From NCBI GenBank assembly GCA_015472025.1, contig BNHL01000001.1, positions 2,453,501-2,517,500 of the forward strand: a DNA stretch of 64,000 nt, in the 5' to 3' direction. The stretch comes from Cytophagales bacterium WSM2-2. GTDB taxonomy: Bacteria > Bacteroidota > Bacteroidia > Cytophagales > Cyclobacteriaceae. The number at the start of each line of letters is the position of its first letter. Positions within the stretch are counted from its first letter, which is position 1. The translations under genes and the position numbers were made by a program. The notes beneath the pieces were generated by a model. It ran no database searches. It was not told the DNA's origin and worked only from the letters and a program-made list of their open reading frames with translations. Positions 14,714 through 32,888 of the stretch are shown here, piece by piece.

Positions 14714-15841
14714 ATGAACATCATCGTTTCTCTAAAAGACAAGCTTGAAGAAAAGAAGAAAGCAGACTCATTTCGACAGTTAAAGGACATTCAGGGGCTT
14801 GTCGACTTTAGCTCCAACGATTACCTGGGACTCGCGAATTCACGTGAGTTGTTTGAAATCATCCGGCATGAAGTTGAGAAACTTCAACCCCCTTATAATG
14901 GAGCTACCGGTTCAAGGCTACTTTCAGGCAATAGCACTCTGGCTGAAGAATTAGAGTCAAAACTTGCGGATATTTTCCGAGCGAAGAGAACATTGTTGTT
15001 CAATTCCGGCTACACGGCCAACTTGGCTGTTCTTTCTTCTCTTCCGCAGCGGGGCGACACTATAATATATGATGAGTTGGCCCATGCCTGCATCAAAGAT
15101 GGAGCGCGGTTGAGTTTAGCCTCGCGATTCAGTTTCCGCCACAATGATCTTGACGATCTGGAAGAAAAGATAAAGCGCGCCAAGGGAAATATTTTTGTTG
15201 CCGTGGAATCGATTTATTCTATGGATGGAGATGAGTGCCCATTGGCCGAGTTAACCGCACTAGCCGAGAAATATCCGATCACCATAATCCTTGATGAAGC
15301 CCACAGTACGGGTAGCTTTGGCGAGAAAGGGAGTGGACTTGCGGTACAGAGTAAATTACATGAAAAAATTGCGGTCCGGATTTATACTTTTGGCAAAGCC
15401 ATGGGTGCTCATGGAGCATGCGTAGCCGGCGATGAAGTGTTGATTGACTATCTCATCAATTTTGCGCGCCCATTTATTTACACCACAGCAATGCCCCCGC
15501 ACAGTTTGGTTGCTATTCGATGCGCTTTCGACTTCCTGGAAAGGAAAATAAATTCTCAGAAAGAACTACAGGCAAGGGTTAGTCATTTCTCAACAGTTTT
15601 CGAAAAAATAAAATTGAACCAGATCAGCAGTAAAAGCTCAATTCAGAATGTGATTTTGCCAGGAAATACCGAAGTGAAAAAACTGGCGGTATTTCTGAAC
15701 GAACAAAAATTGGATTGTCGTCCCATACTGTCACCGACAGTAAAAGAGGGATCGGAGCGTATCCGGATTTGTCTTCACTCTTTTAATACCAACGAAGAAA
15801 TCAACCAACTGGCTTCCGCAATTCAGAAATTTATTCAATGA
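14714..15841 (+). CDS. bioF: 8-amino-7-oxononanoate synthase (BioF)
   Basis: 375 residues, a PLP-dependent alpha-oxoamine synthase joining pimeloyl thioester and L-alanine. Motifs: NDYLGLA, GATGSRLLSGN, ILDEAHSTGSFGEKG, and the PLP lysine K228 in TFGKAMGAHGA. The family also holds serine palmitoyltransferase and KBL, but the ATGA overlap with bioD and the following bioA make BioF the clear choice. First gene of the biotin unit, divergent from comM. An AACAAC-N10-GTTGTT inverted repeat (14615-14636) lies upstream but does not match a known BirA site. Confidence 0.94.
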   Translation: MNIIVSLKDKLEEKKKADSFRQLKDIQGLVDFSSNDYLGLANSRELFEIIRHEVEKLQPPYNGATGSRLLSGNSTLAEELESKLADIFRAKRTLLFNSGYTANLAVLSSLPQRGDTIIYDELAHACIKDGARLSLASRFSFRHNDLDDLEEKIKRAKGNIFVAVESIYSMDGDECPLAELTALAEKYPITIILDEAHSTGSFGEKGSGLAVQSKLHEKIAVRIYTFGKAMGAHGACVAGDEVLIDYLINFARPFIYTTAMPPHSLVAIRCAFDFLERKINSQKELQARVSHFSTVFEKIKLNQISSKSSIQNVILPGNTEVKKLAVFLNEQKLDCRPILSPTVKEGSERIRICLHSFNTNEEINQLASAIQKFIQ

Positions 15842-29912: not shown

Positions 29913-31778
29913 ATGAAACTGATATTTACTTTTAGCATACTGCTCATCGGCACAGTTGCCTTTTCACAAGATTTTAAGGAAAAGGAATTCAAGACCGAAA
30001 TAAAGGAAGTGACAGTCTTTCTGAGCGGAGCCCAGATTTTTGAATCGGGGAGTATCCTGATTCCGGCGGGCAATACAATTCTTAAAGTCAAAAACCTCTC
30101 TCCGTTCCTTGACGGTAAAAGTGTACGTGTAAAGGCAGATGGAGACTTTACCATTTTGGCGGTCAATCATAAAATCAATCACCTGAATGAATTGAGAAAA
30201 GATACGAGAATCGATAGTGTGAAGAAAGCGATCGAAGGCCTGGAGTTCCTGATATCCAAAGACGAAAGCAGAATGGTTGTTCTGAAAGAAAAACAAAGCG
30301 TTCTGGATGAGAACAAAAAAATTGGATCTCAAAACGTAGCAGTTACCGTGACTCAATTGAAACAAACTATTGATCTGTTTGAATCTGAAGTTTCGAAAAT
30401 CAAGGAGGAGGAAATTCATCTTGTTAAAAGCATCGAAGTAAAGAGAAGGGGACGTGATAAACTTGTGTTACAGCTCAGCACCTTGAACGATTTGAAATCG
30501 TCTCCGACCAGTGAGCTTGAGATCAGAGTAAACGCAGACACTCCAGTGACTACAAAGCTTGATTTGACTTACCTCGTTTCCAACGCAGGCTGGTTTCCGA
30601 AATACGACATTCGTGTTCAAAGCATCAAAAAACCACTGGAGCTCACATACAAGGCTGAAGTCTTTCAAAATACAGGTGTTGACTGGAAGAATGTAAAACT
30701 TCGGTTTTCCAATGGCGATCCAAACCAAAGCGGACTCATACCTGAACTGAATACTTGGAATTTGAATTTTGCCAGGTATACTGTCGTTGATAAAAGTGGC
30801 TACGTACTTGCAGCAAATTCGATAAGCAGGGTGAAAGGAAGAGTACTCGATGAAGACGGCAAGCCCTTGCCTGGAGTGAACGTGATTGCCAAAGGATCGA
30901 CCAATGGGACGGTTACAGATGCTGAGGGCTTCTACAGCATGACTCTGCCCGACGGCTCTCAACAACTTGTTTTTTCTTTCATCGGCCTCCAGACTAAGGA
31001 GGTAGCCGTGACTCGATCTGAAATGAATCTTCAAATGGCGGCAGATGTGACACAATTAAGCGAGGTCGTAGTGACAGCTTATGGAGTTGGAGGTGCCAGT
31101 GGTGAAACTTATGGAAGAGAAGGGGAAAGAGAAAAATCCAGGCCGATTATTACCACGATGATCGAAAATCAAACCACCGTTCAAATCGAAGTTGCAACAC
31201 CCTATTCGATCAAATCCAATGGGGATAAACTCATGGTTGAATTGAAGAAGCATGAGATTGATGCGATGTATCAATATTACGCTATCCCCAAACTTGATAA
31301 AGACGCTTTCCTGATGGCGAAGATTACACAATGGGATCAATATAATCTGCTAGAAGGCGAAGCCAATTTGTATTTCGAAGATGCTTATATCGGCCGGTCA
31401 CTTCTGAATGCAAAATCACTTCAAGACACGTTGAATATTTCGTTGGGACGGGATAGAAGCATCGTTATCGGGCGAGTCAAAAACGAACAATTCACTAAGC
31501 GCAAAACGATCGGAAGCAACACCGTTGATACCCGTGGATTTAAAATAACTGTAAGAAATAAAAAATCACAGGCGATAAAGCTCACGCTTTTCGATCAAAT
31601 CCCTGTTTCAGTTGTTAGCGATATCTCTGTAACTCCGGTAGAGATCACCAAAGGAATTTTCAATGAAAAGACCGGTAAAGTCTCCTGGGATTTGGTTATC
31701 GATCCGCAGCAGCAAAAAGAAATCAATCTTCAGTACGAAGTCAAGTATCCGAAACGGGAACGCGTTATACTGGAGTAG
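29913..31778 (+). CDS. DUF4139/MuiA-family protein with inserted carboxypeptidase-regulatory domain
   Basis: 621 residues with signal peptide MKLIFTFSILLIGTVAFSQ. The N-terminal DUF4140-like part (KEVTVFLSGAQIFESGSI) is followed by a coiled coil (~85-180) and the start of DUF4139 (LDLTYLVSNAGWFPKYDIR, VDWKNVKLRFSNGDPNQSG). At ~307-390 a complete CarboxypepD_reg-like domain interrupts it (VKGRVLDEDGKPLPGVNVIAKG...) and ends SEVVVTAYG, the junction motif of SusC-type receptors, although no barrel follows. DUF4139 then resumes to the C-terminus. The role in the envelope is unknown. Overlaps the convergent desaturase gene by 14 bases. Confidence 0.85.
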   Translation: MKLIFTFSILLIGTVAFSQDFKEKEFKTEIKEVTVFLSGAQIFESGSILIPAGNTILKVKNLSPFLDGKSVRVKADGDFTILAVNHKINHLNELRKDTRIDSVKKAIEGLEFLISKDESRMVVLKEKQSVLDENKKIGSQNVAVTVTQLKQTIDLFESEVSKIKEEEIHLVKSIEVKRRGRDKLVLQLSTLNDLKSSPTSELEIRVNADTPVTTKLDLTYLVSNAGWFPKYDIRVQSIKKPLELTYKAEVFQNTGVDWKNVKLRFSNGDPNQSGLIPELNTWNLNFARYTVVDKSGYVLAANSISRVKGRVLDEDGKPLPGVNVIAKGSTNGTVTDAEGFYSMTLPDGSQQLVFSFIGLQTKEVAVTRSEMNLQMAADVTQLSEVVVTAYGVGGASGETYGREGEREKSRPIITTMIENQTTVQIEVATPYSIKSNGDKLMVELKKHEIDAMYQYYAIPKLDKDAFLMAKITQWDQYNLLEGEANLYFEDAYIGRSLLNAKSLQDTLNISLGRDRSIVIGRVKNEQFTKRKTIGSNTVDTRGFKITVRNKKSQAIKLTLFDQIPVSVVSDISVTPVEITKGIFNEKTGKVSWDLVIDPQQQKEINLQYEVKYPKRERVILE

Positions 31779-32772
31779 ATTTCACTAAATCCATATCCGG
31801 TTTGCTCTCATCAGTGAGTTTCACCTTACCGCGCTCATTTCGCATGATGCGGGAGTAAAGAGAAATATTCTTATCGAACAGGAACCGGAAGAAAAGCTTG
31901 GTCCAGGATTGATGAGAGAAGAGTGTGTCATAATAAGTTGGCGCACTCTTTTTCAATTCAGGCAAACGGTTCCACGGAATGGATGGAAAATCGTGATGCT
32001 CGTTGTGATAGCCTACGTTAAAGGCTACGGCATTGAGTGGGCCATAATAACTATATGTTTCCTGGGTTTCACTCAAAGTCAAATAGTGCTCCTGTATCCA
32101 TCGTGCTCCAAGTGGATGTAAGCCCACGGAGAAGAAAAAACTCAATAGCATAAAAGCAAAAGCTTTTGGGCCGAAGAACATCCAAAGAGCAACATTGAAA
32201 GCGATTTGCACAACCCAGTTGGTGATGATCCAACCATCTACCGGTTTGATTTCTTTCAAACGGAAAGTGCGGATCACCTGGAATACCGGGAAGAGCAACA
32301 ACCAAAATGCTTTACCCAGCGTGGAGTTGTTGAAAAATTTGGCCTCCCAGAAATCGGGCAAATCTGCATCAAGCTCATGGACGCCTTGAAAAGAATGATG
32401 CTTGATGTGATAGCGTTCAAATGAAATTGCAGAAGGAAAAATATGCGGCATGTTAGAAACTATCGCAGCCACCCGGTTCAGGGCTTTAGTTTTGAAAAGG
32501 AGATGGTGGGAACATTCGTGGATCATCACAAAGAGCGCGTGATTGAAGAAAGCGCCAACGCCATAGGCTACCAGCAAAACAACCCACCAGGCTGAATCTT
32601 TCACCAGGTAGGACAAGAAAATCATCCCGCCAACCAGACCGATAATTGCAAAAATCGTGAGCGGATTCTTGCCCATTAATTTTTTCACATCCGGATACTG
32701 CTTGAGAATTTGTAGTGTGCGCACCCGGTGCGGCTCAGAAACCTCTGAAAATCGAAAAGAATGATCTGCCAT
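31765..32772 (-). CDS. Membrane fatty-acid desaturase closely resembling sphingolipid delta-4 desaturase
   Basis: 335 residues. The N-terminus FSEVSEPHRVRTLQILKQYP with DVKKLMG matches the lipid-DES extension of eukaryotic dihydroceramide delta-4 desaturases. Histidine boxes: HECSHH (85-90), HIKHH (122-126) and HNEHH (256-260), with extra His in LHPLGARWIQEHY. The stretch ETYSYYGPLN, FNVGYHNEHHDFP and SLYSRIM is nearly what I recall of DEGS1. Four or more membrane helices are visible. Likely introduces a double bond in a sphingoid or fatty acyl chain using di-iron and O2. No serine palmitoyltransferase gene is nearby. Convergent overlap with the DUF4139 gene. Confidence 0.88.
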   Translation of the reverse strand: MADHSFRFSEVSEPHRVRTLQILKQYPDVKKLMGKNPLTIFAIIGLVGGMIFLSYLVKDSAWWVVLLVAYGVGAFFNHALFVMIHECSHHLLFKTKALNRVAAIVSNMPHIFPSAISFERYHIKHHSFQGVHELDADLPDFWEAKFFNNSTLGKAFWLLLFPVFQVIRTFRLKEIKPVDGWIITNWVVQIAFNVALWMFFGPKAFAFMLLSFFFSVGLHPLGARWIQEHYLTLSETQETYSYYGPLNAVAFNVGYHNEHHDFPSIPWNRLPELKKSAPTYYDTLFSHQSWTKLFFRFLFDKNISLYSRIMRNERGKVKLTDESKPDMDLVKSTPV

Positions 32773-32888
32773 AAGACCGCGAAGTTTGCAATTTTATTTC
32801 AGATTTCAGTTGGCCGTCACCAAAAATGAAGCGAATGAAATTCATAATCCGCCCAATGCTGTGAAATTTGTAATTTGTAATCTTTTTT

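Follow-up and report, generated by a model that had tools for sequence, protein, structure and literature searches.

A sphingolipid delta-4 desaturase-family gene in a Cytophagales genome that seems equipped for sulfonolipids

The window analyzed here is a 64,000-nucleotide stretch of Cytophagales bacterium WSM2-2 (contig BNHL01000001.1, positions 2,453,501 to 2,517,500), and it carries on its minus strand a gene of the DES/DEGS (sphingolipid delta-4 desaturase) family. A preliminary description of this DNA had likened the gene to eukaryotic DEGS1. The human DEGS1 sequence used for comparison was a hand-entered copy, not a database record, and all DEGS1 figures given below depend on that copy. 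The plus-strand frame across the gene is full of stops. The gene and the parts of its predicted protein are as follows.

31765–32772, minus strand: DES-family desaturase gene (P0001), a 335-amino acid open reading frame (ORF) from ATG to stop
32662–32763, minus strand: N-terminal Lipid_DES domain, residues 4–37 (PF08557, 41.5 bits, cut-off 23, E 8.8e-11)
31936–32589, minus strand: FA_desaturase domain, residues 62–279 (PF00487, 94.1 bits, E 1.5e-26)
32506–32520, minus strand: His box 1, HECSH, residues 85–89; H85 and H89 are invariant in 33 bacterial copies and DEGS1
32395–32409, minus strand: His box 2, HIKHH, residues 122–126; H122, H125, and H126 are invariant
31993–32007, minus strand: His box 3, HNEHH, residues 256–260; invariant
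32032–32061, minus strand: DES block ETYSYYGPLN, residues 238–247; ETYSYYG-like in 33 of 34 DES rows

All of the motifs quoted in the preliminary description lie in this reading frame, which bears out its account of the gene. The N-terminal motifs are EPHRVRTLQILKQYP (residues 13–27) and DVKKLMG (28–34), and the C-terminal motifs are FNVGYHNEHHDFP (251–263) and SLYSRIM (304–310). The His-box patterns HxxxH, HxxHH, and HxxHH start at residues 85, 122, and 256. The description had also named PF08557 as the profile by which its assignment could be checked, and the domain scores well above its cut-off. Pfam describes PF08557 as 'Sphingolipid Delta4-desaturase (DES)'. Both PF08557 and PF00487 were matched by 19 of 19 rows, comprising the window protein and 18 diverse bacterial relatives, a result independent of the hand-entered DEGS1.

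The window protein is 39% identical to human DEGS1 over 321 residues, and identities among the remaining 32 bacterial DES rows span 35.5–48.7%. There are 54 invariant positions in the 33 bacterial copies, and DEGS1 has the same residue at 49 of them. The shared positions include all eight box histidines, ETxSYYG, and NxGxHNEHHD. The genome has ten places of the FA_desaturase family, the window's DES gene included, and a BLAST search of the DES protein against its own genome (E 0.001) returned only itself. The motif scan took in eight of the nine other FA_desaturase genes (the ninth, L190, was left out), and ETYSYYG and NVGxHNEHHD were present in none of the eight. Seven of these eight ordinary desaturases could be aligned to DEGS1 with a best E of 0.043, one gave no alignment, and none was significant. 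These data support the gene as a full-length member of the DES/DEGS family by sequence, and the earlier view that the protein is of the DES type rather than a general acyl desaturase is upheld by PF08557, by the full-length similarity to DEGS1, and by the comparison with the eight ordinary desaturases.

The long-chain base available to such an enzyme was approached through the alpha-oxoamine synthases of the genome, which is 99.65% complete and encodes four: L113, a KBL-like enzyme, BioF, and a distant fusion. Only bioF lies inside the window. The positions of bioF and L113 are listed here.

14714–15841, plus strand: bioF, adjoining bioD- and bioA-like ORFs; the bioF model fits best, and the serine palmitoyltransferase (SPT) model gives 229.5 bits (cut-off 640)
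G000:C1:2748236–2749486: L113, a synthase gene of the SulA type; best solved relatives 7u7h and 28eh

An alignment model of SulA and SPT gave 679 bits for L113, 323 bits for the KBL-like gene (E 4.7e-96), 241 bits for BioF, and 110 bits for the fusion. Among solved structures, L113 scored 577 bits with 7u7h, 563 bits with 28eh ('Cysteate-C-fatty acyltransferase'), and 220 bits with the SPT 3a2b. The 7u7h entry is deposited as '7-keto-8-aminopelargonate synthetase-like enzyme'; we take it to be SulA despite this general name. Excerpts of PMC9304779 describe a lysine at SulA position 281 as the mark that separates SulA from SPT. In L113 the corresponding residue is K280, which lines up with K281 of 7u7h if the first 20 residues of 7u7h are a tag. 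The diagnostic position is lysine in 23 of 23 SulA-type rows and alanine in 6 of 6 SPT-like rows; L139 was left out of alignment A1 because its translated stretch contains a stop. With the curated NCBI model of Bacteroidota SPT, L113 reached 285 bits and the fusion 135 bits, which like BioF are below the cut-off. No match to this model was found in the window's genome at E 1e-120; at the same limit 2 of 14 control genomes matched (Bacillus subtilis and Bacteroides ihuae), and one of these two exceeded the cut-off. By these tests no SPT appears to be present among the four synthases, and the genome seems equipped for sulfonolipids, not sphingolipids. The suggestion that this bacterium makes ceramide-type lipids, for which a search for SPT had been proposed as a check, is therefore not supported in this genome, where a SulA-type enzyme was found instead.

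The fusion, L115 (G000:C1:4162801–4163928 and on), is an 871-residue open frame with an alpha-oxoamine synthase half. That half matches NF005697 at 262 bits, below the cut-off of 342. The remaining ~400 residues matched nothing in NCBIfam at E 0.01, and no Pfam family scored over its cut-off.

Of 395 Bacteroidota genomes, 40 match PF08557, spread over 25 of 170 genera, and the 14 control genomes give no match. In the window's order 56 of 291 genomes match the profile. Within that sample it occurs in four of five genomes of the window's genus, and the other genera of the family lack it. The 40 DES genomes of the phylum sample divide into 7 with SulA only, 16 with both SulA and an SPT-like enzyme, and 17 with an SPT-like enzyme only. 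In the order, all 56 genomes with DES have a SulA-class match by score. The scores are 609–686 bits except in G500, whose match is a fragment (547 bits) at the end of a contig; the diagnostic lysine was checked in the five of these matches that are in A1. No SPT-like match was found in 53 of the 56. The exceptions are G524, G415, and G428, the last two with matches under the SPT cut-off of 640. The curated SPT model, run over 80 DES genomes, matched 25 at E 1e-120 and exceeded 640 in 9; the matches of families f17, f24, f35, and f43 have 490–526 bits. The label 'SPT-like' is provisional for the more distant families because only 9 of 80 exceed the cut-off and Bacillus subtilis also matches. 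As judged by these profile searches, the data show that many genomes retain DES although they have no recognized source of dihydroceramide of their own.

A tree was built from human DEGS1 and the DES rows of 33 of the 40 phylum genomes (G062, G082, G176, G187, G326, G363, and G379 were left out). When ordinary desaturases are omitted, the window protein belongs to a 12-member clade (support 90/95), all from genomes with SulA, and a second 12-member clade (support 100/100) consists of SPT-like-only genomes. These clades follow taxonomy, so the match between clade and pathway may reflect descent only. Three alignment columns (39, 107, and 132) separate the DES proteins of the two clades; they were set aside as not interpretable because the two pathway sets are also two clades. 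Human DEGS1 joins three f24 copies with support of 100/99, and of 98/94 when an outgroup of ordinary desaturases is added. The outgroup tree is disturbed: its branches are very long, its bootstrap was unsettled, and two of the eight ordinary desaturases fall among the DES rows. A single clade of all bacterial DES proteins was not rejected in it (approximately unbiased test, p-AU 0.058). The direction of any exchange is not settled by the tree because the human sequence is one long branch built on the hand-entered copy.

The f24 copies L146, L147, and L148 (G191, G089, and G262) are 48.7, 43.3, and 43.1% identical to DEGS1. They have the three best BLAST scores to DEGS1 among the 33 copies, followed by f43_G384 (43.3%), and their genomes contain both SulA and an SPT-like enzyme.

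At least 582 DES relatives were confirmed in genome contigs, and the best 80 of these are Bacteroidota by title. They include Cyclobacteriaceae/Flammeovirgaceae metagenome-assembled genomes, Chitinophagaceae, Mucilaginibacter, and others, with Chitinophaga, Puia, and Ferruginibacter as cultured genera by title. DES matches were not found in phages, plasmids, PHROGs, or viral contigs. Neighbors common to the 80 best loci are an M16 peptidase (18 of 80), an MnmD-like protein (15 of 80), and IspF (14 of 80), and all three are divergent neighbors of the DES gene in this window too. Neighbor clusters were named by visual inspection of one example each (its first 120 residues), with one M16 and one E1 protein domain-checked; 79 of the 80 loci fell in the DES cluster. 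The ORF filter of the locus survey passed over L165 (G387), and this DES locus was added by hand. The distribution in Bacteroidota, the kept neighbors, and the lack of phage, plasmid, or viral matches indicate a settled bacterial gene, not contamination. A recent origin from a eukaryote, phage, or plasmid was considered and rejected given the bacterial relatives, the absence of mobile-element matches, and a G+C content (44.5%) near that of the window (43.3%). The preliminary description allowed for transfer from or to eukaryotes; recent acquisition of the gene from a eukaryote is improbable in light of the Bacteroidota relatives and kept neighbors, and an ancient exchange between bacteria and eukaryotes, to which the pairing of DEGS1 with f24 may point, is possible.

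The stop of the DES gene overlaps by 14 bases the 3' end of a convergent plus-strand gene at 29913–31778. This gene encodes a DUF4140/DUF4139 protein in which the DUF4139 match (residues 216–614) encloses a carboxypeptidase-regulatory-like domain (307–387). A promoter-like site lies upstream of the DES start at 32820–32791 on the minus strand; such sites are at chance level in the region (2 found, 2.2 expected). A dehydrogenase E1 gene lies ~1.7 kb away on the DES strand in 21 of the 80 relatives' loci (L005 and 20 others). The E1 protein that was scanned matches PF00676, PF02779, and PF02780, and no such gene adjoins DES in this window.

An AlphaFold2 model of the DES protein was computed from alignment A3 (29 rows, 28 of the best 80 loci plus the window; the 19-row alignment above is A2) and had a predicted local distance difference test score (pLDDT) of 72.4 and a predicted template modeling score of 0.75. 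The nearest solved chains by Z score are in the Orf2971-FtsHi (13.2) and Ycf2-FtsHi (12.1) motor complexes. AlkB is next, with 8f6t at Z 12.0 (root mean square deviation 4.6, 250 residues aligned) and 8sbb at Z 11.6 (4.0, 236 residues). Matches below AlkB have Z of 5.8 or less and are unrelated. Foldseek returned no match at E 0.001 or better, AlkB having E 0.12 and 0.18. Sequence searches found no solved DES structure at E 1, and a second search gave only two 5-aminolevulinate synthases (E 0.09). Stearoyl-CoA desaturase is not among the best 50 structural rows, which excludes nothing. The model agrees with a membrane di-iron enzyme without proving it.

The DES reaction uses a di-iron center held in the His boxes to activate O2. 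Hydrogen is abstracted first at C4 of the long-chain base, adjacent to the 3-hydroxyl, and afterward at C5. In enzymes of the DEGS2 type, rebound to a 4-hydroxyl can occur instead. The best reading, in our estimate evenly poised between right and wrong, is that the window protein is a membrane di-iron desaturase/hydroxylase that would act on the capnine base of sulfonolipids, close to C4. It is based on DES family membership by sequence, the conserved metal-binding histidines, the SulA-type gene, and the finding of no SPT. SulA would condense cysteate with acyl-acyl carrier protein, and the product would be reduced to capnine and N-acylated, these later steps being assumed from the pathway. 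The substrate would be the long-chain base of the sulfonolipid, either as N-acyl-capnine or as capnine or 3-ketocapnine. With O2 and two electrons from a putative donor, the enzyme would remove hydrogens from C4 and C5 beside the C3 hydroxyl. The predicted product is a 4-unsaturated sulfonolipid, and the same chemistry could give a C4-hydroxylated one. N-acyl-capnine has a sulfonate in place of the 1-hydroxyl of dihydroceramide, so a similar active site could accept it. Flavocristamide A is such a 4-unsaturated sulfonolipid.

Several observations weigh against a sulfonolipid role. Because 17 of 40 DES genomes have an SPT-like enzyme but lack SulA, the DES family is not bound to sulfonolipids. 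A SulA- or SPT-class match is present in 379 of 395 Bacteroidota genomes at E 1e-118, a limit that may admit other synthases in distant families, and against this background the co-occurrence of DES and SulA is uninformative and was rejected as proof. SulA is found in 23 of 40 genomes with DES compared to 116 of 355 without it (raw counts, uncorrected for relatedness), and it is therefore common without DES. The congener G524 has both SulA and an SPT match of 668 bits, over the cut-off. The shared neighbors of the 80 loci include no recognized sphingolipid or sulfonolipid partner, and no SulA/SPT-type ORF was found near 32 DES loci or in the window slice (up to ~8 kb on each side, less at contig ends). 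TIGR03844, a cysteate synthase model for the archaeal enzyme, gave 79 bits against a cut-off of 325; 12 of 14 controls also match it, one over the cut-off. The pLDDT falls below 50 at residues 127–134, beside His box 2, and at 256–260, in His box 3.

Some of these points favor a dihydroceramide delta-4 desaturase proper, which would make ceramide-type lipids from dihydroceramide supplied by an unrecognized route of the cell or taken up from eukaryotes or neighbors. DES is the nearest described family, the substrate pocket may take both lipids, and the SPT-like-only genomes and G524 fit this explanation; however, neither the window's genome nor 52 others of the order's 56 DES genomes has an SPT-like match, and we consider it unlikely. 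An enzyme that is mainly a DEGS2-like C4-hydroxylase, yielding a phyto-type (4-hydroxy) capnine or sphingoid base, is compatible with the capacity of DES enzymes such as DEGS2 for both reactions. Bacterial capnoids with extra base hydroxyls are known, but the one of RIF-1 is at C5, not C4 (excerpts of PMC3463246), and a predominant hydroxylase is to our minds improbable.

We give similarly little credence to the view that the protein only looks like DES and desaturates fatty acids as acyl-lipids or acyl-CoA. PF00487 is a broad superfamily with nine other members in this genome, and no NCBIfam equivalog is over its cut-off for the window protein (best 32 bits against 350), but the protein has PF08557 and the C-terminal DES block, and the eight ordinary desaturases lack a significant alignment to DEGS1. 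Another long-chain amino lipid could be the substrate, such as a base from the 871-residue fusion, which is a second alpha-oxoamine synthase of the genome without an assignment. Its low score with the SulA/SPT model and the absence of a link between it and DES make this very improbable. The sulfonolipid reading can be extended to the proposal that DES proteins redirected to sulfonolipids form the desaturase/C4-hydroxylase step for unsaturated capnine lipids in Bacteroidota, that this is an old bacterial branch, and that a ceramide desaturase gene was once exchanged between f24 (G191, G089, and G262) and eukaryotes. We advance this extension tentatively and think it somewhat less likely to be right than wrong.

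A bacterial DES was not found among the titles and abstract openings listed by searches of open-licence PubMed Central papers (some lists limited to 20), nor did the phrase 'bacterial sphingolipid desaturase' or three similar ones occur in the papers retrieved, and no desaturase for sulfonolipids was found in the portions of the literature searched. The excerpts that name flavocristamide A do so without mention of a double bond. Dihydroceramide-type lipids are reported to be abundant in Bacteroides, and sphingosine bases and ceramide are also listed from a 1975 study (excerpts of the review PMC10626005). Sulfonolipids act on choanoflagellates (RIF-1) and on a von Willebrand receptor, and gliding requires them (excerpts of PMC3463246 and PMC10191378). 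With a named gene in cultured genera, it can be tested which bacteria produce unsaturated sulfonolipids or true ceramides, and whether eukaryotes and bacteria exchanged a ceramide desaturase.

The SulA/CapB sulfonolipid pathway is represented in this genome by a SulA-type enzyme with the diagnostic lysine, which would provide a likely substrate pool, but a desaturase step was not found in the excerpts of PMC9304779, PMC10191378, and PMC11211663. AlkB (8f6t and 8sbb) is the closest solved fold with a named enzyme to the predicted model, but it is 13–18% identical and is a hydroxylase of alkanes. The window protein resembles DEGS1 in both domains, the three His boxes, the DES N- and C-terminal blocks, and length (335 compared to 323 residues). 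It differs from DEGS1 in its bacterial host, whose genome has SulA and no recognized SPT, and its substrate would probably be N-acyl-capnine.

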